DNA from: Nocardia ninae NBRC 108245
GTDB lineage: Bacteria; Actinomycetota; Actinomycetes; Mycobacteriales; Mycobacteriaceae
Length of the DNA: 52,779 nt
Assembly (NCBI RefSeq): GCF_007990755.1
Contig: NZ_BJXA01000066.1
Location: 1 to 52,779, forward strand
Direction of reading: 5' to 3'
In this document: one piece after another, positions 3,909-31,268 of the stretch
Position numbering within the stretch: position 1 is the stretch's first letter
Layout of the letters: each line of letters starts with the position of its first letter
The notes under the pieces: generated by a model
Seen by the model: only the letters and a program-made list of their open reading frames with translations
Told to the model about the DNA's origin: nothing
Databases searched by the model: none
Translations under genes and position numbers: made by a program

Positions 3909-5414
3909 CTAGGAAACCGCCGCGATCCGGGGCTTGCGGGCGTTGCGGTCCGCGGCGACGACCGTGTAGTCGGCGAGGTCGACGGTCCGCAGCTGATTAA
4001 CGTACTGGGTGGCGAAGCCCGGATACATGGTCGCGTTGAAACCGTCCTCGGTGAGGTACCAGCTGCGGCAGCCCGAGTTCCAGGTGGTGCCGGTCAGCCT
4101 GCGCTGCATGCCCGCGTTGTAGCGGTCCTGCCGGTCCTTGCGGACGTCGAGCACGCGCAGATCCTGCTCCAGGATGGTGCCGATGGCACTGACCAGGTAG
4201 TCGATCTGGGCCTCCATGTACACCAGCGCCGAGTTGTGGCCTGGCCCCGAATTCGGTCCGAAGGTGAAGAACAGGTTCGGATACCCGGACACGGCGACAC
4301 TCTTGTAGGCGTACGCGCCGCGCGACCATTCGTCGGCCAGCACCCGGCCGTCCCGGCCGACGACCGGGATCGGGGTGCCGGTCTTGGATACGTCGAAGCC
4401 GGTGGCGAAGACGATGCAGTCGGCCTGGTGCTCGATGCCTTCCGCGGTGCGGATGCCGTTTTCGGACAGCCGCGCGATGGGCCAGGTGATCAGCTTGCAG
4501 TTGTCCCGTTGCAGCGCGGGGTAGTAGTCGTCGGTCATCAGCAGGCGCTTGCAGCCCGCCCGGAAGTCCGGGGTGAGCTGGCGGCGCAGCCAGGGATCCT
4601 TGACCTGCCTGCGTAATTGGGCCCGCCCGACCAGTTCGACGACCCTGGTCAGCGGCGTGTTCCAGACGACGCCGAGCGCGACCGACTCGTGGCCGTAGAA
4701 CCAGGCCTGCCGGGCGAGCTGCTCCGCGGCGGGCACCCGGCGGTAGAGCTCCTTGGTGACCGCGTTGGTGCGCCGGTTGACCCGGGGCAGCACCCAGCCC
4801 GGGGTGCGCTGAAAGACCTTGACCGAAGCGGCTTTATCGACCAGCTCCGGAATGATCTGCACCGCGCTGGCACCGGTGCCGACCACCGCGACCTTCTTGC
4901 CGGTGAAGTCGTAGTCGTGATCCCAACGGGCACTGTGGATCTTGTGCCCGGCGTAGTCCTCGATGCCGCGAATGTTCGGAAAGCTCACATTGGCAAGCGG
5001 TCCCGAGGCGAGCACCACGGCGCGGGCCCGGACGGCCTCGCTGCGGCCGTCGATGGTGATCTCCCACAGCCCGGCCGGCTCGTCGAAGGCGATGCCGGAC
5101 ACGTTGTGGCCGAACCGGAAATGCGGTCCGAGGCCGAACTCGGCCGCCATCGTCTCGATATAGCCGAGGATTTCGTTGCTGCCCGAGTAGGTGTGCGACC
5201 AGTCCGGGTTCGGCGCGAAGCTGTAGGAGTACAGCCGCGACGGAATGTCGCACGCCGCACCGGGATAGGTGTTGTCGCGCCAGGTACCGCCGATCGCGTC
5301 GCCGCGCTCGAAGATGGCGAAACTGTCGATCCCCTGCTGTTTCAGGCGAATCGCGCTGCCGATACCGGCGAACCCGCCGCCGATGATGGCGACGTCCAAA
5401 GTCTTGCTGCTCAT
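3909..5414 (-). CDS. FAD/NADPH-dependent Baeyer-Villiger-type monooxygenase (MymA-like)
   Basis: The 501-residue flavoprotein monooxygenase has an N-terminal FAD-binding GGGFAGIG motif at residues 13-20, then GGTWRDNTYPGAACD, the Baeyer-Villiger fingerprint YAGHKIHSARWD, and a second Rossmann motif GTGASAVQI for NADPH. Such enzymes insert oxygen next to a ketone or oxidise heteroatoms. With an SDR, a diiron protein and an HSL hydrolase upstream, a route that oxidises an alcohol to a ketone, forms an ester and hydrolyses it is plausible. The arrangement recalls the M. tuberculosis mymA-lipR-sadH genes. An alternative GTG at 5423 overlaps the upstream stop as GTGA; the ATG at 5414 is preceded by GAGG at short spacing. 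The MerR open frame begins right after its stop codon. Confidence 0.88.
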   Translation of the reverse strand: MSSKTLDVAIIGGGFAGIGSAIRLKQQGIDSFAIFERGDAIGGTWRDNTYPGAACDIPSRLYSYSFAPNPDWSHTYSGSNEILGYIETMAAEFGLGPHFRFGHNVSGIAFDEPAGLWEITIDGRSEAVRARAVVLASGPLANVSFPNIRGIEDYAGHKIHSARWDHDYDFTGKKVAVVGTGASAVQIIPELVDKAASVKVFQRTPGWVLPRVNRRTNAVTKELYRRVPAAEQLARQAWFYGHESVALGVVWNTPLTRVVELVGRAQLRRQVKDPWLRRQLTPDFRAGCKRLLMTDDYYPALQRDNCKLITWPIARLSENGIRTAEGIEHQADCIVFATGFDVSKTGTPIPVVGRDGRVLADEWSRGAYAYKSVAVSGYPNLFFTFGPNSGPGHNSALVYMEAQIDYLVSAIGTILEQDLRVLDVRKDRQDRYNAGMQRRLTGTTWNSGCRSWYLTEDGFNATMYPGFATQYVNQLRTVDLADYTVVAADRNARKPRIAAVS

Positions 5415-17672: not shown

Positions 17673-18896
17673 TCAGCCCTTGACGCAGAGCACCTGCCGC
17701 AGCGTCGCGACGACGTCGACCAGGTCGCGCTGCGCGGCGATGACCTCGTCGATGTCCTTGTAGGCGGCCGGGATCTCGTCGACCACGCCCGCGTCCTTGC
17801 GCGACTCGACGCCCTCGGTCTGGGCGACCAGATCGGCGACGGTGAACTGCTTCTTCGCCGCATTGCGGCTCATCCGCCGTCCCGCGCCGTGCGAGGCCGA
17901 CTGGAACGAGGCCGGATTTCCCTTGCCGCGCACCACGTATGAGCGGGTACCCATCGAACCGGGGATCAGCGCGAGCTCGCCCGCGCCCGCCCGGACCGCA
18001 CCCTTGCGGGTGACCAGCATCGGCATGCCGTCGATGAGCTCCTCGGCCACGTAGTTGTGGTGGCAAGAGATCGGCTGCTCGAAACGCACCGGACGCCCGG
18101 CGAATTCGTCGCGCACCGCGCGGCACACCAGGGCGAGCATCACCGCGCGGTTACGTGCGGCATACTCCTGCGCCCAGGTGAGGTCGCGCCGGTAGGCCGC
18201 CATTTCCGGTGTCCCGGAGAGGAATACGGCCAGATCGCGGTCGGGCAGATCGACGTTGTGCGGCAGCGTCCGCGCCACGGCCATGTGCCGCTCGGCGAGT
18301 TCCTTGCCGATATTGCGGCTGCCCGAATGCAGCAGGATCCATACCGCGTCGTCCTGGTCGAAGCAGACCTCGATGAAGTGGTTACCGCCGCCCAGGGTGC
18401 CCATCTGCTTGTGCGCCTTGCCTTCTCGCGCCTGCACTCCGTCGTCGAGCGAGGAGAACGCGCGCCAGAAGCTGTCCCAGCCCGCCCGCAGCGTGGCGGT
18501 GCTCGCGCCCAGCGCGGACACCTCACCACCGAGCTTGGTCACGTTGACCGCGCTGTCGTGCGCGGTGAAGCCGACCGGGACGGCGGCCTCGATCCGGGAG
18601 CGCAGCGAACGCAGATCGTCCGGGAGGTCCGCGGCGGTGAGGTCGGTCTTGACACTCTCCATGCCGCAGCCGATATCCACCCCGACCGCGGCCGGGGCCA
18701 CCGCGTCCTTCATCGCGATCACCGAGCCGACCGTTGCCCCCTTGCCGAGGTGCACGTCCGGCATCACGCGGACGCCGTGGACCCATTGCAGCGCGGCGAT
18801 ATTCCGCAGCTGCTGCAGCGCGGCCTGCTCGACCGCGTGCTCTTCGGCCCACATGAGCGTCTGCGCGCGGGTGCCGCGCAGCTCGACGGGAAACAT
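17673..18896 (-). CDS. rtcB: RtcB 3'-phosphate RNA ligase
   Basis: The 407-residue protein carries the RtcB signature residues: VGVDIGCGM (metal-binding Asp and Cys), GTLGGGNHFIEV, LHSGSRNIG, a SCHHNYV metal site, and HGAGRRMSR, whose histidine is guanylylated. RtcB joins RNA 2',3'-cyclic phosphate or 3'-phosphate ends to 5'-OH ends with GTP and Mn2+, for RNA repair or re-ligation after endonuclease cleavage. The frame extends to 18989, but AAAGGA stands before the ATG at 18896, where the family N-terminus begins. There is no archease, RtcA or RtcR gene beside it. It lies 99 bp downstream of the FluG-like pair on the same strand. Confidence 0.95.
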   Translation of the reverse strand: MFPVELRGTRAQTLMWAEEHAVEQAALQQLRNIAALQWVHGVRVMPDVHLGKGATVGSVIAMKDAVAPAAVGVDIGCGMESVKTDLTAADLPDDLRSLRSRIEAAVPVGFTAHDSAVNVTKLGGEVSALGASTATLRAGWDSFWRAFSSLDDGVQAREGKAHKQMGTLGGGNHFIEVCFDQDDAVWILLHSGSRNIGKELAERHMAVARTLPHNVDLPDRDLAVFLSGTPEMAAYRRDLTWAQEYAARNRAVMLALVCRAVRDEFAGRPVRFEQPISCHHNYVAEELIDGMPMLVTRKGAVRAGAGELALIPGSMGTRSYVVRGKGNPASFQSASHGAGRRMSRNAAKKQFTVADLVAQTEGVESRKDAGVVDEIPAAYKDIDEVIAAQRDLVDVVATLRQVLCVKG

Positions 18897-22440: not shown

Positions 22441-23706
22441 ATGACGGTAGGAACGACGACCGAGCCGGATGTCCGCGAGGTGGTGCACGAGGCCGCACGC
22501 AAGGCTCGGGTCGCGTCGCGTGTGCTGGCCCAGCTGACCACCGCACAGAAGAACGACGCATTGCACGCGGCGGCCGACGCGCTGCTCGCCGCGGCCGACC
22601 AGGTGCTCGACGCCAACGCCGAGGACGTGCAAGCGGCGCAGTCGGCGAACGTCGAGGAATCGCTGATCGACCGGCTGCGGCTCACCAAAGCCAGGATCGA
22701 CGGCATCGCCTCCGGCCTGCGCCAAGTGGCCGGCCTGCCCGACCCGATCGGCGAGATCGTGCGCGGCTCGGTGCTGCCGAACGGGCTGGAGGTCCGTCAG
22801 GTCCGGGTGCCGCTCGGCGTGATCGGCATGGTCTACGAGGCCAGGCCGAATGTCACCGTCGACGCGTTCGGGCTGACGCTGAAGTCCGGCAATGCCGCGC
22901 TGCTGCGCGGTTCGTCCTCGGCCGCGCACTCCAATGCCGCGCTGGTCGCGGTGTTGCGCGAATCTCTTGTCGCACACGATCTTCCGGCCGATGCGGTGCA
23001 GTTGCTGCCCAGCGCGGACCGGTCCAGCGTCACACACCTGATCCAGGCCCGCGGTCTGGTCGACGTGGTGATCCCGCGCGGCGGCGCCGGTTTGATCAGC
23101 GCCGTGGTCCGCGATGCCACCGTGCCGACCATCGAGACCGGCACCGGCAACTGCCACGTCTACGTACACGCCGCCGCCGACCTCGAGATGGCCGAGCAGA
23201 TCCTGCTCAACGCGAAGACCCGCCGCCCCAGCGTCTGCAATGCCGCCGAGACGGTGCTCATCGACGACGCGATCGCAACCACCGCGGTGCCCAAGCTGAT
23301 CGAGGCGCTCGAACGGCACGGCGTCACCGTGCACGGCGACCTGCCCGGCCTGGTGCCCGCGAACAGCAAGGACTGGGGCGAGGAGTACCTCACCCTTGAT
23401 ATCGCGCTCAAGGTGGTCGACGGCCTGGACGCGGCCATCGAGCACATCAACACCTGGGGCACCGGGCACACCGAGGCCATCGTCACCGGTGAGCTGGCCG
23501 CGGCCCGCGAATTCTCCAGCCGGGTCGACGCCGCCGCCGTGATGGTGAATGCTTCGACCGCGTTCACCGATGGCGAGCAATTCGGCTTCGGTGCCGAGAT
23601 CGGCATCTCCACCCAGAAGCTGCACGCCCGCGGCCCCATGGCGCTACCGGAGCTGACCTCCACGAAGTGGATCGTGTGGGGCGACGGCCAGATCCGGCCT
23701 GTTTAG
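22441..23706 (+). CDS. proA: Gamma-glutamyl phosphate reductase
   Basis: The 421-residue protein is ProA, second enzyme of proline synthesis, which reduces gamma-glutamyl phosphate to glutamate-5-semialdehyde with NADPH. The aldehyde-dehydrogenase-like catalytic cysteine is in [11 protein letters not shown] (Cys266). Other family blocks are [32 protein letters not shown] and TGHTEAIVT. Length is normal for the family. The M. tuberculosis homologue also lies next to the MoxR/VWA genes. A short GGGGG/CCCCC stem (23713-23729) lies between its stop and the MoxR ribosome-binding site. Confidence 0.95.
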
Positions 23707-23744: not shown

Positions 23745-24629
23745 GTGGCCCCCATTTCCGAGACGACCCAGGAGCCGATCTTCAGCTCGGTCGACGATGT
23801 GATCGACCAGCTGGCGACCACGGGCTATCTCGCCGACAAGGCCACGGCCACCTCGGTGTTCCTGGCCGACCGGCTCGGCAAGCCGCTGCTCATCGAGGGT
23901 CCGGCCGGTGTCGGCAAGACCGAGCTGGCGCGGGCGGTCGCGCAGACCTCCGGCGCCGAGCTGGTGCGTCTGCAGTGCTACGAAGGTGTCGACGAGGCGC
24001 GCGCGCTCTACGAGTGGAACCATGCCAAGCAGATCCTGCGGATCCAGGCGTCCAGTGAAAACGACTGGGAAGAAACGAAAGCCGACGTTTTCACCGAGGA
24101 GTTCCTGCTGTCGCGGCCGCTGCTCACCGCGATCCGGCGCAGCGATCCGACGGTGCTGCTGATCGACGAGACCGACAAGGCCGACGTCGAGATCGAGGGC
24201 CTGCTGCTCGAGGTGCTCAGCGATTTCGCGGTCACCGTGCCGGAACTGGGCACCATCGTCGCGAGCCGCAAGCCGTTCGTGGTGCTGACCTCCAACGCGA
24301 CCCGCGAGCTGTCCGAGGCACTCAAGCGTCGCTGCCTGTACCTGCACCTCGACTTCCCGGACGAGGAGCTGGAGCGCCGCATCCTGGCCAGCCGGGTGCC
24401 GGAACTGTCCGCCGCGGTCGCCGCCCAGCTGGTGCGGATCGTGCACGTGTTGCGCGGCATGCAGCTCAAGAAGCTGCCCTCGGTCGCCGAGTCGATCGAC
24501 TGGGGCCGCACGCTGCTCGCCCTCGGCATGCATGATCTGGACGACTCGGCGGTGCGGGCGACGCTCGGCGTCGTGCTGAAGCATCAGAGCGATCACCAGC
24601 GCGCGCTGGCCGAGCTGAAGCTGGCCTGA
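23745..24629 (+). CDS. MoxR-type AAA+ ATPase
   Basis: The 294-residue protein is a MoxR-family AAA+ ATPase. It has Walker A GPAGVGKT at residues 52-59, Walker B LLIDET near 138-143, the sensor-1 block VVLTSNATRELSEALKRRC and a helical lid. MoxR ATPases work with VWA proteins to assemble or activate enzymes, often inserting metals or cofactors. A GAGGAAGGA site before the GTG at 23745 sets the start; upstream frame continuation overlaps proA. The VWA gene follows after 4 bp, so the two act as a module. Position and partner match Rv2426c/Rv2425c as I recall them. Confidence 0.9.
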   Translation: MAPISETTQEPIFSSVDDVIDQLATTGYLADKATATSVFLADRLGKPLLIEGPAGVGKTELARAVAQTSGAELVRLQCYEGVDEARALYEWNHAKQILRIQASSENDWEETKADVFTEEFLLSRPLLTAIRRSDPTVLLIDETDKADVEIEGLLLEVLSDFAVTVPELGTIVASRKPFVVLTSNATRELSEALKRRCLYLHLDFPDEELERRILASRVPELSAAVAAQLVRIVHVLRGMQLKKLPSVAESIDWGRTLLALGMHDLDDSAVRATLGVVLKHQSDHQRALAELKLA

Positions 24630-24633
24630 GGCG

Positions 24634-26061
24634 ATGCCCGCGCGTTCGCAGCCCGCGCCCGACGCGGACCTGACCGCGCCACACGGGTTGTCCGGTCACC
24701 TCGTCGGGTTCGTCGAAGCGCTGCGCGAACGCGGCATTCCGGTGGGCCCCTCGGAAACTGTGGACGCGGGCCGGGTGGTCACGGTGCTCGACCTGCTCGA
24801 CCGGGAGGTGCTGCGCGAGGGGCTCGCGTGCTCGTTGCTGCGCCGGACCACCCACCGCGCGACCTTCGACCGACTGTTCGACCTGTGGTTCCCGATCGCG
24901 ATCGGGGAGCGCAGCGGTGCCCGCGACGAGGTCGAGATTCCCCGGACCCCGACCGGTGAAGTCGACATCGCCGCGCTGCGGGAACTGCTCGCCGAGCTGT
25001 TGAGCCAGGAATCGGCCGATGCGCAACTCGAGGCGCTGGCCGCCCAGTTGGTCGAGCAGCTCGGGCAGTACACGTCCGCGAGTGGCGCGTCGTTCTCGGC
25101 GTATCAGGCATTGAAAGACGTTCAGCCGCAGACCTTGCTGGCCAAGATCCTGGCCGGCCTCGCGGTCGGACCGGATACCAGCGCGTTCGACACCGAGATC
25201 GCCCGGCGGGCCGCGCGCGGCCGGATCGACGCGTTCCGGGCGTCGGTCGAGGCGGAGACGCGGCGGCGGGTGGCCGAGCGGATCGGGCGGGAGCGGGTCG
25301 CCAGCTACGGTGTCCCGCGCCAGTCCGAGGACGTGGACTTCCTGCGCGCCTCGGAATCCGAGCTGATCGAGATGCGGCGCAGCACCCAGCGCCTCGCCCG
25401 CATCCTCGCTTCGCGACTCGCGGTGCGGCGCAGGCATTCCCGCCGCGGCGAGATAGATATGCGCAAAACGCTGCGTAAGTCGATGTCGACCGGCGGCGTG
25501 CCCATCGATCTGGTGAACCGCAAACCACGGCCCGGTCGTCCGGAGCTGGTCCTGCTGTGCGACGTGTCCGGCTCGGTGGCCGGGTTCAGCAACTTCACCC
25601 TGTTGCTGGTCAGTGCGCTGCGCGAACAGTTCTCGCGGGTAAGGATTTTCGCGTTCGTCGACCAGACCGACGAGGTCACCCAGTTCTTCGATCCGCGCAC
25701 GCAGCTGGACAAGGCGATGAACCGGATCTTCACCGAGGCCAAGGTCGTCGGGATGGACGGGCACTCCGACTACGGCAACGCGCTGGCCGGCTTCGCCAGA
25801 GACTTTCCGGATGCTGTCACCGCCCGCAGCTCGCTGCTGATCCTCGGCGACGCGCGCACCAATTACCGTGACCCCGAACTGGAAACACTGCGGGGGCTGG
25901 TGCGCACCGCCAAGCACGCGCACTGGCTCAATCCGGAGATGCGCACCAACTGGGGTTCGGGCGATTCCGCCGCCGACAAATACCAACAGGTGATCGAGAT
26001 GCACGAATGCCGCTCGGCCAGCCAGCTGACGGCCGTGGTGTCGATGTTGCTACCGGTGTAG
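24634..26061 (+). CDS. VWA domain protein (CoxE-like), MoxR partner
   Basis: The 475-residue protein has a helical N-terminal half and a C-terminal von Willebrand A domain. The MIDAS motif is complete at the start of the domain (LLCDVSGSVAGFS, residues 310-314 for D-x-S-x-S), followed by a threonine-containing loop and GMDGHSDYGNAL. CoxE-type VWA proteins pair with MoxR ATPases as substrate adaptors. It starts 4 bp after the ATPase stop, and the YjbR-like gene starts 8 bp after its own stop. Arg-rich segments between residues 190 and 290 are typical of this group. The client enzyme is not encoded next to it. Confidence 0.88.
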   Translation: MPARSQPAPDADLTAPHGLSGHLVGFVEALRERGIPVGPSETVDAGRVVTVLDLLDREVLREGLACSLLRRTTHRATFDRLFDLWFPIAIGERSGARDEVEIPRTPTGEVDIAALRELLAELLSQESADAQLEALAAQLVEQLGQYTSASGASFSAYQALKDVQPQTLLAKILAGLAVGPDTSAFDTEIARRAARGRIDAFRASVEAETRRRVAERIGRERVASYGVPRQSEDVDFLRASESELIEMRRSTQRLARILASRLAVRRRHSRRGEIDMRKTLRKSMSTGGVPIDLVNRKPRPGRPELVLLCDVSGSVAGFSNFTLLLVSALREQFSRVRIFAFVDQTDEVTQFFDPRTQLDKAMNRIFTEAKVVGMDGHSDYGNALAGFARDFPDAVTARSSLLILGDARTNYRDPELETLRGLVRTAKHAHWLNPEMRTNWGSGDSAADKYQQVIEMHECRSASQLTAVVSMLLPV

Positions 26062-26069
26062 GAGCCGAC

Positions 26070-26411
26070 ATGGATGGTGCGCAACTGCTCGAGTACTGCC
26101 TGGCGAAACCCGGCGCGTGGCAGGACGAGCCGTGGGAAGGCGACGTGGTCGCCAAGGTCGGGGACAAGATCTTCGCGTTCCTAGGGGACACCTCGGTGGG
26201 GCTGAAGTGTGGCCGCAGCCGGGAGGAGGCCGACGAGCTGACCCGGGTGTATCCGAATGACGTGGCGGCTTCGGCGTATATCGGGCGCTACGGCTGGAAT
26301 GTGGTCACGCTCGGTGGTGCGGTGCCGGGTGATGAGTTGCGGGAGCTGGTCGATCAGTCCTACGACGCGATCGTGCGCAAGCTGCCGAAGTCCAAGCGGC
26401 CGACCGGCTGA
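26070..26411 (+). CDS. MmcQ/YjbR-like protein
   Basis: The 113-residue protein resembles the MmcQ/YjbR (CyaY-like fold) family. LLEYCLAKPGAWQDEPWEGD at the N-terminus, VVAKVGDKIFAFLG, and SAYIGRYGWNVVTLGG near the end with LRELVDQSYDAIVRKLPK are the usual blocks. Members have a double-wing DNA-binding-like fold, but their biochemical role is unclear. GGAGCC sits before the ATG at 26070, 8 bp after the VWA stop, so it belongs to the MoxR-VWA operon. The downstream HSP90-family gene is 79 bp away, behind a structured leader. Confidence 0.8.
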   Translation: MDGAQLLEYCLAKPGAWQDEPWEGDVVAKVGDKIFAFLGDTSVGLKCGRSREEADELTRVYPNDVAASAYIGRYGWNVVTLGGAVPGDELRELVDQSYDAIVRKLPKSKRPTG

Positions 26412-26445
26412 AGTTCTTATAGGCCCGTCAGGCGAGACCATCAGC

Positions 26446-26514
26446 GTTCGTTAAGCGAACCATTGGGCGCTGCGGCGAGGATTGCCCACCATGGTGGAGA
26501 GAGCGCCCAATGGT
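26446..26514 (+). promoter_or_regulatory. Structured leader enclosing the HSP90-family start codon
   Basis: A perfect 13-bp inverted repeat, ACCATTGGGCGCT (26459-26471) and AGCGCCCAATGGT (26502-26514), encloses a 30-nt loop. The loop holds GAGGA (26477-26481), the ATG (26491-26493) and the palindrome CCACCATGGTGG (26486-26497), which contains the ATG. A further hairpin GTTCG-ttaag-CGAAC (26446-26460) abuts it. In mRNA this would hide the translation start. It could also be a DNA operator. Confidence 0.6.
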
Positions 26515-28341
26515 GTGGCGGCGGTGGAGGACAGCTATACGTTCCAGGTGGATCTGCGGGGGATCGTCGACTTACTGTCTCACCACCTGTACTCCAGTCC
26601 CCGGGTGTATCTGCGGGAACTGTTGCAGAACGCCGTCGATGCCGTCACCGCGCGGGCCCGGCGAGACCGGTTGGCGCCCACCGCGATTCGGATCTGCATC
26701 GACGAGACCGGCCTGCGGATCGCCGATCCCGGGATCGGGCTGACCGAGGCGGACGTGCACCGCTTCCTGGCGACCATCGGCCGATCGTCGAAGCGGGACG
26801 ACATCGAGGGCGCGCGGCGCGAATTCCTCGGGCAGTTCGGCATCGGCCTGCTGGCCTGCTTCACCGTCGCCGAGACGATCCGGGTGGTCACTCGCTCCGC
26901 CGACGATCCCGCCGCGGCGCCGGTCGAGTGGCTGGCCGCCGCGGACGGCACCTACTCGGTGCGGTTGCTGGAACCGGCGGAATATCCCGAGCCAGGCACC
27001 ACGGTGCATCTGACGCCCCGGGTCGGCGCGGAGTCGTGGTTCGGCCCGCGCCGGGTGATCGAACTCGCCCGTGAGTACGGGTCGTTGCTGCCGTATGCGG
27101 TGACGGTCGAGTCCGATGGCGTCATCGTGCCGGTCACCGATGGACCGGCGGTGTGGCATCGCGAATATTCGTCCGTCGTCGAGCGCCGCGACGCATTGCT
27201 CGAATTCGGTGAACGCGTCCTCGGCTTCGCACCGCTCGACGTCATCGACTTGGACGCGGAACTGGCCGGCGTGAGCGGCGTCGCGTATGTGCTTGCGCAG
27301 CCGGGCAATCCGGCCGAGAGCAGCGCGCACCGGGTGTACCTGAAGGGCATGCTGCTCGGCGACGCGGTGCGCGGCGTACTGCCGGACTGGGCGTTCTTCG
27401 TGCGCTGCGTGATCGACACCGACTCGTTGCGGCCCACGGCCTCCCGGGAGGGGCTCTACGAGGACGAACGGCTCGCCATCATCCGCGAGGTGCTCGGCGA
27501 TCGAGTGCGCGACTGGCTCACCGAGATCGCGGCCGAACAGCCGCAGCGGCTGGCGGCGTTCCTCGCGGTGCATGCGCTCGGGGTCAAGGCGATGGCTCGG
27601 CATTGGCCGGAGTTGTTCCGGATCATGCTGCCGCACTTGAATTTCGAGACCACCGACGGACCGCTTCCGCTGACCGAGTTCGCGCGCAACCACCCGGTCG
27701 TCCGGGTGACCGCGTCCGTGGAAGAGTTCCGCCAGGTGGCCTCGACCGCTGCCGCGCAGGGGATCGGGATCGTCAACGGCGGCTACGCCTATGACCGCGA
27801 GCTGGTGGCGTTGCTGCCACGGCTGCTGCCCGGCGTCGAGGTGATCGACCTCGATACCGACGCCATCACGGCCGCGCTCGACCCGATCGATCCGGCCGAG
27901 GAACTGGCGTTGACGCCGGTGCTGTCCATTGCCCGCGCGGTGCTGGATCCGCTGTCGTGCGACGTGATAGTTCGTGCCTTCCATCCTGTTTCGGTGCCCG
28001 CGCTGTATCTGGACGACCGCGGCGCGCGCAATGAACGCACCAGGGCCGAGACGGCGCTGGGCGCGGACGAGCTGTGGAGCGAGATCCTCGGCGCGCTGGA
28101 CGCCGCGGCGCCGCGCGCCCAGCTGGTGCTGAACCATCACAGCCCGGTCGTGCGCAGGCTGGCCCGGATCGGCGATCCCGCTTTCCTGAAGACGGCGGTG
28201 GAATCGCTGTACGGGCAGGCCCTGCTGATGACCCACCGCCCGCTGCGGGCGGCCGACACGGCGCTGCTCAATCGCGCCTTCGGCGAGTTCCTCAGCTGGG
28301 CGACGCAACGTGCCGCGGGCACCGGCGAAGAGACGGAGTGA
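26491..28341 (+). CDS. HSP90-family (HtpG-like) GHKL ATPase
   Basis: The 616-residue protein, close to HtpG in length, has the HSP90 N-terminal ATPase motifs. These are YLRELLQNAVDA with the catalytic Glu43 and Mg-binding Asn47, DPGIGLT (Asp79), GRSSK, and FLGQFGIGLLACF (from Gly114). The middle-domain arginine segment is TASREGLY (Arg319), matching the NVSRE of HtpG. The C-terminal third is divergent, with no recognisable client or MEEVD motif. It should act as an ATP-driven chaperone. A TPR protein is encoded 3 bp downstream, which recalls eukaryotic Hsp90 cochaperones. A TTG at 26482 is an alternative start, but ATG at 26491 with GAGGA at 9-nt spacing is preferred. Confidence 0.88.
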   Translation: MVERAPNGVAAVEDSYTFQVDLRGIVDLLSHHLYSSPRVYLRELLQNAVDAVTARARRDRLAPTAIRICIDETGLRIADPGIGLTEADVHRFLATIGRSSKRDDIEGARREFLGQFGIGLLACFTVAETIRVVTRSADDPAAAPVEWLAAADGTYSVRLLEPAEYPEPGTTVHLTPRVGAESWFGPRRVIELAREYGSLLPYAVTVESDGVIVPVTDGPAVWHREYSSVVERRDALLEFGERVLGFAPLDVIDLDAELAGVSGVAYVLAQPGNPAESSAHRVYLKGMLLGDAVRGVLPDWAFFVRCVIDTDSLRPTASREGLYEDERLAIIREVLGDRVRDWLTEIAAEQPQRLAAFLAVHALGVKAMARHWPELFRIMLPHLNFETTDGPLPLTEFARNHPVVRVTASVEEFRQVASTAAAQGIGIVNGGYAYDRELVALLPRLLPGVEVIDLDTDAITAALDPIDPAEELALTPVLSIARAVLDPLSCDVIVRAFHPVSVPALYLDDRGARNERTRAETALGADELWSEILGALDAAAPRAQLVLNHHSPVVRRLARIGDPAFLKTAVESLYGQALLMTHRPLRAADTALLNRAFGEFLSWATQRAAGTGEETE

Positions 28342-28344
28342 CAA

Positions 28345-30579
28345 GTGGATACCGCCGAGATCAATGAGGCGCTCGCGCAGGTCTACTCGTTGCCGCACGG
28401 CCGACTACGCGTCGAGCGGCTGGAAATGCTTGCGGCGGCGGCGAAGTCGGCCACCGACCGGCATCTCGAAGGACGGGTGTTGCTCGAGCTCGCCGAGTCC
28501 TACACCTATGCGGGCGAGCGTGACCTGGCACCGGTCGCCTACGGCAGGCTGCTGCGGATCTACGACGAGTTCCCCGCCGAGCTCGGCTCGCTGACGCATT
28601 CGGTGCACTGGTACCTCAAGTGGATGACCTGGGGGCTGATCGACAATCCCGCGGTGCCGCCGACGACGGTCTACCGGTGGTTCGACGAGCTCGAAAACCG
28701 TTACCGCCAGCGCGGTTACAGCCTGCGCCCGGTGCTCGCGCTGCGCGCCGAATTGGCCAGGAAGCTGGGCGACGCCGAGCACGGTGCGCTGTTGCACGAG
28801 GAAGCGATGGCGGCGCCGCGCGACGGCATGTCGGACTGCGATGCGTGCGAGCGCAACGAATGGGGCACCGGCCGTGCGGCTTTGGGTGACGATGCTGGTG
28901 CGCTCGCGCACTGGCAGCCGGTCATCGACGGTGATCGGGTCTGCGCGGAGGAGCCGCACCGAGTATTGGCGCAGGCGCTGCTGCCACTGCTGCGCACCGG
29001 ACGGGTCGCTGAAGCACGTGGCGCGCATTTGACCGGGTATCCGCTGGTCCGGCACAACGACAGCCTCCGGCCATCAGTTGCGTTGCACATCGAGTTCTGT
29101 GCGTTGACCGGCAATGAAGGACGCGGGCTGGAGATCCTGGCCGAACATGCCCGCTGGCTCACCGATCCCGGCGCGGACGCCGGTGCTCGGCTCGCGTTCA
29201 TCACCGGGGTCTGCGTGCTGCTGCGCCGGCTCGACACGCTCGGCCTCGGCTATCTGCCGATCGCGGGTGGGACGGTGAATTCACTACTGGCGGAGCTGGA
29301 TACGGAGATTGCGGGGTTGTGTGCGCGGTACGACATCCGTAACGGGAATGCTGCGGTGAGTACCCGCGTCACCGCTCGGTTGGCGAGACAGCCATTGCTG
29401 GAACGGCTTCCGCTCGGATTGCGCAGTCGGTTGCCGGGGGTGTCGGCAGGTTGTGATGCTGCCGATGGTGCCGCCGCGACGTTCGGTGCCACGAGCGGGC
29501 AGGCGTCGACCGGCGGGGGCGCGCCGGCAGGCGGCGGCATCGAGGGCGGTTCGGGTCCGGATAGCGCCGTGCGGACGGGCGATGGCACTGCGACGATCGG
29601 TGTCGGTTCTATGAGCGTTGCAGGCTCGGCGGGCGGCGTCGGTTCGGCCTCGGGTTCCGTGCTTGCCGACAGTGCTGCCACTGGTGTGAGCCGAACGGCG
29701 GTCCCGTCGTCCGGTGAGTGGGCTGCGGACGTCACCGCCGAAGCGGACAGGCGAAGCGAAGCGCGGCGGTTGGCGGAGCTCGGTGCCGCCCGGCTGGCCG
29801 ACGCCCCGGAACAGGCCGAAGCTCGACTGCGTGAGGCGTTGACGATCGGGTCCGGTGTGCTGCCCGCGGAACACCTGGCGCGAGTCAGCTCGCAATTGGT
29901 CATCGCGATCGCCGGACAACCGGATCGCGAACTCGACCTGGCGGACGCGGCGGTGCGCGCGGCCGCTCGGTGGGAGGGGTTGTCCGAGCCGGATCTGCTG
30001 CACCACACCGTGATCGCCGCGCGAGCTTTCCATCGCGGTCGGCGGCACGGCGAGGCCGTCGCGCTCTTCGAGGAAGCGCTGGCGGCGAACGGGGTTCCTT
30101 ATCCACCCGCCGAACTGGCCACGGTTCGCGCCCAGTTCGGCGAATCGCTGAACGCATTGCACCGATACGACGACGCCGCCCGGCAGTTCGCCCTCGGCGC
30201 TCAGCTGGTGGAGCACGATCCCGAACGTCGCGCACTGCACGCCCAACTCGCCATGTCGGCGGCGGCCGCGCTGGACTACTCCGATCACGACGCGGCGGCG
30301 GTGGCCGCGTATCAGCGGGCGGCCGAACTGTTCGGCGAGCTCGGGGACGTAGTATCGCGAGCCCGGTGCGTCCGATCGGCGGCTTGGTTGCAGCTGTGGG
30401 GGTCCACGGCGGGGCCGGGCCGGCCGTGGTTCGCCGCGATGCAGGCACTGATCGCCGAGCTGGCCGAACTGGACGGCGGCTCGTCGAGCAACGAGGTCGC
30501 CGAGGAACTCGCCAGGGCCCGCCGGGAGCTGACGGAAATGCTGGACGCCGAGGACCGGGACTGGGTGGCCGGGGAGTAG
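28345..30579 (+). CDS. Large TPR-repeat protein paired with the HSP90-family ATPase
   Basis: The 744-residue protein consists of helical repeats of TPR character: for example [28 protein letters not shown] near residue 45 and, in the C-terminal half, repeats around [14 protein letters not shown] and [19 protein letters not shown]. Between about residues 365 and 455 lies a Gly/Ala/Ser-rich linker (GASSG-type, many GG pairs) without charge, so two repeat domains are joined flexibly. There is a C-x-x-C pair (CDACERNEW). GTG at 28345 starts 3 bp after the HSP90 stop with GGAG upstream, so co-translation is expected. A scaffold or cochaperone role is inferred from repeats and context. Confidence 0.82.
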
Positions 30580-30626: not shown

Positions 30627-31268
30627 ATGCAAGAGACAGGTCGGCGCGGCCGCAAACTGGGCGTGATGGGCGGCACCTTCGACCCCATCCACCACGGTCA
30701 CCTGGTCGCCGCCAGCGAGGTCGCGAATCGGTTCGAGCTCGACGAAGTGATCTTCGTCCCCACCGGTCAGCCCTGGCAGAAGGCGGATAAACAGGTCAGT
30801 CCGGCGGAGGACCGCTACCTGATGACGGTGATCGCGACCGCCTCGAACCCCCGATTCTCGGTCAGTCGCGCGGACATCGACCGGGGCAAGGTCACCTACA
30901 CCGTCGACACACTGCGGGAGATGCGCAGCCAGCATCCCGACGCCGAGCTGTACTTCATCACCGGAGCGGATGCGCTGGCCAACATCCTGACATGGCAGGA
31001 TTGGGCCGAACTGTTCGAACTGGCGAGGTTTGTCGGGGTGAGCCGTCCGGGGTACGAGCTGAATACCGATCATCTCGAGGAACATCTGCGTGATCTTCCG
31101 GCCGATGCGGTGACCATGGTCGAAATCCCGGCGCTGGCGATCTCGTCGAGCGAATGCCGTCGCCGCGCCGCCGAGAATCGGCCGGTGTGGTACCTCGTCC
31201 CCGATGGCGTGGTGCAGTACATATCCAAGCGGCACCTCTATGTGCCCGCAGGAGCGGAAGGTAGCTGA
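30627..31268 (+). CDS. nadD: Nicotinate-nucleotide adenylyltransferase
   Basis: The 213-residue protein is NadD, which adenylates nicotinate mononucleotide to deamido-NAD in NAD synthesis. The nucleotidyltransferase motif [11 protein letters not shown] is at residues 15-25, with [10 protein letters not shown] and the C-terminal ISSSECRRR (the ISSTxxR signature). The ATG at 30627 gives a family-typical N-terminus; the frame is open for over 600 bp upstream as a shadow of the TPR gene. A mini-ORF begins directly after its stop and links it to rsfS. The nadD-rsfS order is standard in bacteria. Confidence 0.95.

Follow-up and report, generated by a model that had tools for sequence, protein, structure and literature searches.

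Five genes on one strand of a Nocardia ninae NBRC 108245 contig encode a MoxR-type ATPase, a VWA protein, a small YjbR-like protein, an HSP90 family protein and a large TPR protein, and they raise the question of whether all five work together, as the original prediction proposed, or whether unrelated systems have merely become neighbours. The window analysed is the whole 52,779-nucleotide stretch of contig NZ_BJXA01000066.1; gene coordinates are those of a codon-usage gene caller, which places all five genes on the forward strand and exactly reproduces the gaps of 4, 8, 79 and 3 bp described earlier. On balance we consider it likely that the stretch holds two neighbouring modules: a resident CoxD/CoxE-type MoxR-VWA pair between proA and nadD, in which YjbR is optional, and a two-gene HSP90-TPR operon with its own promoter and a dedicated partner protein. 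The second module comprises the following features:

26491..28341, forward strand: HSP90 family protein of the NF010683/PRK14083 type, not HtpG; an alternative TTG start is possible at 26482
28345..30579, forward strand: TPR partner protein, 744 aa
28345..29469, forward strand: N-terminal domain of the partner (residues 1-375), the part common to HSP90 partners, with conserved C165, C168, C200 and D330-x-R332-N333
29470..29661, forward strand: Gly/Ser/Ala-rich linker of the partner (residues 376-439), seen in the translation
29662..30576, forward strand: C-terminal TPR domain of the partner (residues 440-744), where the family profile matches TPR structures

The pairing of HSP90 with the TPR protein turned out to be stronger than had been claimed. 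Among 80 named HSP90 relatives (the best 80 of 579 found, some in loci shorter than the 8 kb flank requested), a relative of the partner follows HSP90 in 79, with the two matches 6-261 nt apart, and the sole miss (L060) is a contig end inside the HSP90 gene. A profile of the partner's N-terminal domain (TPR-N) found a match within the 18 kb stretches of 19 of 20 NF010683-type HSP90 genes, five of its members coming from these loci and L047-L049 from elsewhere, but none in the 8.5-9 kb stretches surrounding 20 HtpG genes from that order; with the HtpG model (cut-off 371) all 20 controls reach 738-800 bits, and with NF010683 (cut-off 455) they reach 167-201 bits. At the one locus missed (L020/L050), a 297-aa TPR gene overlaps the HSP90 end instead. 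With shorter flanks the profile matched at 30/31 NF010683-type loci and 0/29 HtpG loci, a count in which one locus appears twice (L002, L206) and four matches are weak (L017-L019, L021). By gene calls, 78 of 107 pairs have overlapping HSP90 and TPR genes, by a median of 4 nt, and distances between HSP90s correlate with those between partners (r 0.98 over all pairs; 0.93 over 25 thinned pairs, with 0/2000 permutations as high). The two HSP90 types of Nocardia each keep their own partner lineage. The pairing extends to Bacillota, where two named genera were covered: a Listeria HSP90 (799 bits) has two TPR-N relatives behind it (E 4e-49 and 2e-48) and a Paenibacillus HSP90 (715 bits) has one (E 1e-58), and it is present on a faecal scaffold filed, unverified, as phage (L194; TPR-N match E 9e-63). 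Near-constant pairing, gene overlap and an extra conserved domain together point to a stable HSP90-TPR complex, in which the N-terminal domain would sit on HSP90. In the literature searched (mostly without subscription journals, and without bioRxiv) no description of the pair was found among the matches listed, which is not proof of its absence, and we know of no account of an NF010683-type HSP90-TPR pair.

Some details of the paired loci may be recorded here. The tandem TPR-N genes of Listeria lie at L193 4315-8774, where HSP90 is divergent from the ferritin gene fri, and an extra TPR-N match about 1 kb beyond the adjacent one in L048 and L049 suggests tandem copies there too. An arylamine N-acetyltransferase gene lies beside the pair both in the second N. 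ninae copy (L031 9888-10742) and on a Streptomyces globosus plasmid (L191 3759-4634), possibly by chance.

Linkage of this pair to MoxR-VWA is another matter. The original prediction read the five genes as one working unit, and held that a pair usually found apart from MoxR-VWA would speak against this; the neighbourhood survey found precisely that, the pair being unlinked to MoxR-VWA in 74 of the 80 named relatives within the flank examined. The remaining six are all Nocardia, with HSP90s 78-82% identical to that of the window, and in an order-wide sample MoxR-VWA lay beside the pair in one of 20 further loci, again in this genus. An NF010683-type HSP90 (E<=1e-60) occurs in 33 of 98 Nocardia genomes: 27 carry the type found in the window (78-100% identity), nine carry a second type (51-54%), three of these genomes carrying both, N. 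ninae itself having both types plus an HtpG. Window-type HSP90 genes lie no more than 6 kb from MoxR in 25 of 27 cases, and the other two, which stand on contigs numbered next to that of MoxR, are probably contig breaks. The second type is unlinked to MoxR in 9/9. MoxR is matched in all 98 genomes and is present without a window-type HSP90 in 71, while a YjbR relative (E<=1e-25) was found in 43 of the 98, and 11 of the 18 dissected loci with an HSP90-TPR pair have no YjbR gene. Since linkage is absent from most relatives and from every second-type copy, MoxR outlasts HSP90, YjbR is often missing and the HSP90 gene has an upstream element of its own (see below), the five genes do not look like a single unit. 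The TPR protein was found in 0/12 other genomes of the family outside Nocardia; the remark in the original prediction that M. tuberculosis keeps only the MoxR-VWA part here is therefore better turned round, with the pair as an addition in Nocardia rather than a loss in Mycobacterium. The features that surround the pair are these:

22441..23706, forward strand: proA (gamma-glutamyl phosphate reductase), usual left neighbour of the locus, identified from its translation
23745..24629, forward strand: MoxR-type AAA+ ATPase, CoxD-like, matching AAA models (MadB-like ATPase 302 bits)
24634..26061, forward strand: VWA protein of the CoxE type (VWA_CoxE 173 bits, residues 253-467)
26070..26411, forward strand: YjbR-like small protein, optional at the locus (PF04237, 66 bits)
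26445..26468, forward strand: conserved promoter-like element (core match 26449-26466), 42 nt 5' of the HSP90 ATG
30627..31268, forward strand: nadD, usual right neighbour of the locus, identified from its translation

The history of the slot between the VWA gene and nadD was followed in 46 dissected Nocardia loci, 40 chosen to cover every state seen and six from other samples and the window, so that the numbers are not frequencies; the near-duplicate pairs L053/L147 and window/L139 are both counted. HSP90 with a full TPR protein occupies the slot in 18 loci, the TPR N- and C-terminal domains without HSP90 in eight (all such genomes among the 98) and the TPR C-terminal domain alone in 13, and seven have none of these. 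Coding fragments of HSP90 lie just before the TPR gene in three of the eight HSP90-less loci (L132 4315-4509; L133, oriented, 4049-4195; L138 4065-4486), and a tree of four flanking proteins requires at least seven changes in HSP90 state. The pair has been lost repeatedly within Nocardia, leaving behind HSP90 fragments, lone TPR proteins or nothing. We considered, and rejected, the idea that an incoming HSP90-TPR pair was fused to a resident C-domain gene in the manner of a Rosetta-stone protein. The C-terminal domain is already there in partners from Acrocarpospora, Planotetraspora, Microbispora, Actinocorallia and Actinospica (L056-L059, L061), with about 180-280 residues between the matched N and C parts, and the lone C-terminal domains nest among full-length ones (L151 with L132, L153 with L133; 12 of the 13 C-only loci are in the tree). 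The lone TPR pieces thus look like what decay has left behind rather than the raw material of a fusion; several of these genes are preceded by HSP90 remnants or by the promoter-like element of HSP90. The TPR protein of the near relative L139 is 808 aa long and that of the window 744 aa, which suggests fast length change.

The sequence YGTTAAGNNRAYC, or a one-letter variant of it (L052), stands 5' of HSP90 in 18/18 HSP90-bearing Nocardia loci and is mostly followed by TTGG. By gene calls it lies 40-42 nt before the HSP90 start in 15 of the 18; among the other three, L055 and L144 show an upstream ATG at the same 40-42 nt spacing, and L149 has a spacing of 32 nt. A weight matrix of the element was trained on these 18 loci, whose scores are therefore high by construction, and was applied to held-out loci. 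In one HSP90-less clade a weak element stands exactly 40 nt before the TPR start in 4/4, and as its scores of 1.2 to 4.8 compare with a maximum of 4.0 among 200,000 random words, it is the position rather than the score that supports it. In the C-only loci the element lies 40-42 nt before the C-domain gene in 5/13 (scores 1.6 to 19.8), the best match in the other eight being at different distances, and six of the seven empty loci score below zero, the seventh (L165) scoring 8.6. The strict motif precedes 19 of 20 window-type HSP90 genes and, in other lineages, 0/92 HSP90 genes. Across the 9.7-Mb N. ninae genome the full pattern is matched exactly once, and with one mismatch allowed it has two matches against four for a reversed control pattern, so the element does not seem to be a regulon-wide motif. 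A sigma-70 scan of the region found no promoter, with 0.5 expected, and the element does not look like what we take to be the heat-shock operators CIRCE, HAIR and the ClgR boxes. We read it as a putative promoter or operator belonging to the HSP90-TPR operon itself, from which a leaderless message may arise.

The HSP90 itself belongs over nearly its full length (residues 17-612) to NF010683/PRK14083, the 'HSP90 family protein' of NCBIfam, scoring 782 bits against a cut-off of 455, and at 163.5 bits falls below the cut-off of 371 of the HtpG model (NF003555). The family has a name and models, and we found no function assigned to it; the model description as shown names no partner, so that both the TPR neighbour and the cysteine set of the partner stand outside it. 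It is patchy, since 10 of 296 genomes in a phylum sample pass its cut-off, seven of these from one genus. Two features predicted for the protein held up. E46, N50, D82, G84, G86, G117 and R322 are invariant in 19 aligned relatives; placed by alignment to human HSP90 beta, these are what we take to be the ATPase motifs and the middle-domain arginine, and as judged from the alignment nothing that a functional GHKL ATPase needs is missing among these residues. Divergence of the C-terminal third was also borne out: the protein shares its N-terminal and middle domains with HtpG, but the last third alone aligns to 12 HtpG sequences with 9% probability, rising to 90% against a looser set that contains a divergent relative, and the full-length HSP90 and HtpG profiles align over 555 columns with the C-terminal third, where a dimerisation domain would lie, covered.

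The partner, described earlier as a giant TPR protein, is TPR-type by homology, because 18 of 30 relatives match TPR_12 and the family profile matches TPR structures, although the 744-aa protein itself matches no Pfam model, TPR or other. For the profile of its N-terminal domain no relative was found in the PDB at E<0.04. Of 134 N-domains, 132 (131 of 133 distinct) have all of C165, C168 and C200, three from Bacillota among them, and nine positions (G142, C165, C168, C200, P204, A224, D330, R332 and N333) are invariant in 19 spread-out sequences. The conserved CxxC...C set is probably a zinc-binding site or a redox switch.

Could the five genes nonetheless form one Nocardia unit, in which MoxR-VWA remodels a client that HSP90-TPR folds or holds, with the TPR protein as scaffold? 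The close adjoining of window-type HSP90 and MoxR in this genus is what such a unit would look like, as is the constancy of the slot between VWA and nadD, in which TPR pieces outlive HSP90; but the same pair does without MoxR in the great majority of relatives and in all second-type Nocardia copies, MoxR does without window-type HSP90 in most Nocardia genomes, HSP90 has its own upstream element, and between MoxR-VWA and HSP90 we found no link beyond position, so we regard a single unit as very unlikely. We consider it highly improbable that the pair serves anti-phage defence or some other biological conflict. Its patchiness and repeated loss in Nocardia would suit such a role, and MoxR-vWA pairs are described as cores of predicted conflict systems (PMC7159879). 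Yet PADLOC yields nothing more than weak GHKL or AAA cross-matches, and of 92 mostly Streptomyces loci that lack the window-type linkage, 59 share one divergent gene on the left, so that the context looks syntenic, as for a core gene; on these two grounds the defence reading was set aside. Moreover, the VWA domain fills residues 253-467 of a 475-aa protein, leaving no room for an effector, whereas in the ternary systems the effector domains lie C-terminal to vWA (PMC7159879).

A further alternative is that HSP90 and the TPR protein are only co-expressed, the latter being an independent adaptor or regulator that does not touch HSP90, and several observations that weigh against a two-module locus with a dedicated partner come to bear here. 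Eight of the 98 Nocardia genomes have the TPR N-domain (seven intact, one broken) but not the HSP90, nor do they hold another HSP90 of NF010683 type at E<=1e-60; the partner can thus function or persist in its absence. Seven of these eight loci have intact cysteines, L138 having lost that stretch, and dN/dS of the N-domain is 0.18-0.36 in seven pairs involving HSP90-less genomes vs 0.07-0.19 in seven pairs with HSP90, that is, the domain is constrained but less tightly once HSP90 is gone. The persistence of the TPR protein after the loss of HSP90 argues that it also has some use alone, or decays slowly. In 11 loci of another family (L174-L182, L185, L186), a TPR-N protein without HSP90 carries a YbjN-like domain (confirmed with Pfam YbjN in L176, the sole one tested) and follows a small YbjN-like gene, which makes another kind of pairing for the TPR-N domain. 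The two N-domains without the cysteines belong to L184, which has no adjoining HSP90, and to the first of two partner genes in L048; the HSP90 relatives of Pseudomonas and Xanthomonas plasmid records, distant at 293 and 277 bits and below the cut-off, have 764- and 774-aa proteins directly downstream, neither of which matches TPR-N, though that of Xanthomonas has weak TPR matches; the correlation of HSP90 and TPR distances comes partly from shared ancestry; and the upstream element could be an operator, with which read-through from MoxR-VWA stays compatible. Mere co-expression nevertheless sits poorly with a pairing that spans two phyla, with the frequent overlap of the two genes and with the lack of any TPR-N match at 20 HtpG loci, and we hold it to be unlikely. 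Two observations may be added on these other loci: in L174 and L176 the YbjN-like gene and TPR-N protein gene have an FtsK gene as their next neighbour, and the distant pairs of Xanthomonas (L196 6007-10230) and Pseudomonas (L197 5881-10122) are maybe independent pairings.

Two modules side by side with a dedicated TPR partner thus remain the reading that we favour, and the first of them resembles known systems. MoxR-VWA pairs remodel enzymes and aid metal insertion, as described for NorQ-NorD (PMC9976466) and CoxD-CoxE (PMC3471820, PMC4240915), and NorQD is reported to be required for iron insertion into NO reductase (PMC9976466). Like these, the present locus has a CoxE-type VWA protein (VWA_CoxE 173 bits, cut-off 26.4) adjoining a MoxR ATPase gene, of which it is the presumed partner; the pair differs in standing between proA and nadD, with no neighbour recognised as a client, and its scores of 302 bits (MoxR) and 173 bits (VWA) stay below the MadB and MadC equivalog cut-offs of 475 and 600 bits. 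A VWA relative (E<=1e-40) occurs in 74 of 121 genomes of the order. The flanking genes, which we take to be proA and nadD from their family likeness, are steady: proA precedes MoxR in 36 of 40 Nocardia loci and also in one genome of the same family (L189), and nadD lies downstream in 38 of 40 within the stretches examined. A second MoxR-VWA pair (63% and 47% identical) is found elsewhere in the N. ninae genome (G000:C6 152764-155352), and upstream of the locus an RtcB-type RNA ligase gene (PF01139, 417 bits) lies at 17673-18896 on the reverse strand.

For the second module, the original prediction drew a parallel with eukaryotic chaperones and co-chaperones. The parallel stands in so far as an HSP90 ATPase is joined by a TPR-type partner, as with Hop, PP5 and the FKBPs; it fails at the tail, because no HSP90 among 107 C-termini has a MEEVD-like end, and the analogy is therefore only loose. 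The partner's N-terminal domain also differs in bringing cysteines of its own and in the lack of any PDB relative to its profile below E 0.04. The missing MEEVD and the three near-invariant cysteines suggest that docking and regulation probably differ from those of eukaryotic co-chaperones. We envisage that the HSP90 dimer would clamp clients in an ATP-driven cycle and that the partner, made from the overlapping or adjoining gene, would dock on it through the conserved N-terminal helical-repeat domain without a MEEVD tail, perhaps at the divergent C-terminal third of HSP90. The variable C-terminal TPR part might then select or take clients, while the CxxC...C set in the docking domain might bind zinc or serve as a redox switch.

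Bacterial HSP90 is usually seen as cooperating directly with DnaK, and TPR co-chaperones are regarded as something that eukaryotes added. A 2020 paper agrees with this view and states that bacteria lack a Hop ortholog (PMC7688965). Against that background the pair is unexpected, since the usual view gives bacterial HSP90 no such partners. Tentatively, and with somewhat less than even confidence, we propose that bacteria have a second branch of HSP90, the NF010683 type, which acts as a machine of two parts together with a dedicated TPR-type co-chaperone that docks without MEEVD and senses zinc or redox state through CxxC...C, and that the pair is at least as old as the split between Actinomycetota and Bacillota or has spread between them. 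If this is true, eukaryotes would not be alone in having invented TPR partnership with HSP90. A bacterial HSP90 branch with a TPR partner, present in many Streptomyces, would offer a way to ask how such partnership arose and what the partner does without MEEVD; the three conserved cysteines give a concrete handle on that partner, and the Nocardia locus is a natural loss series showing which part is spared first.

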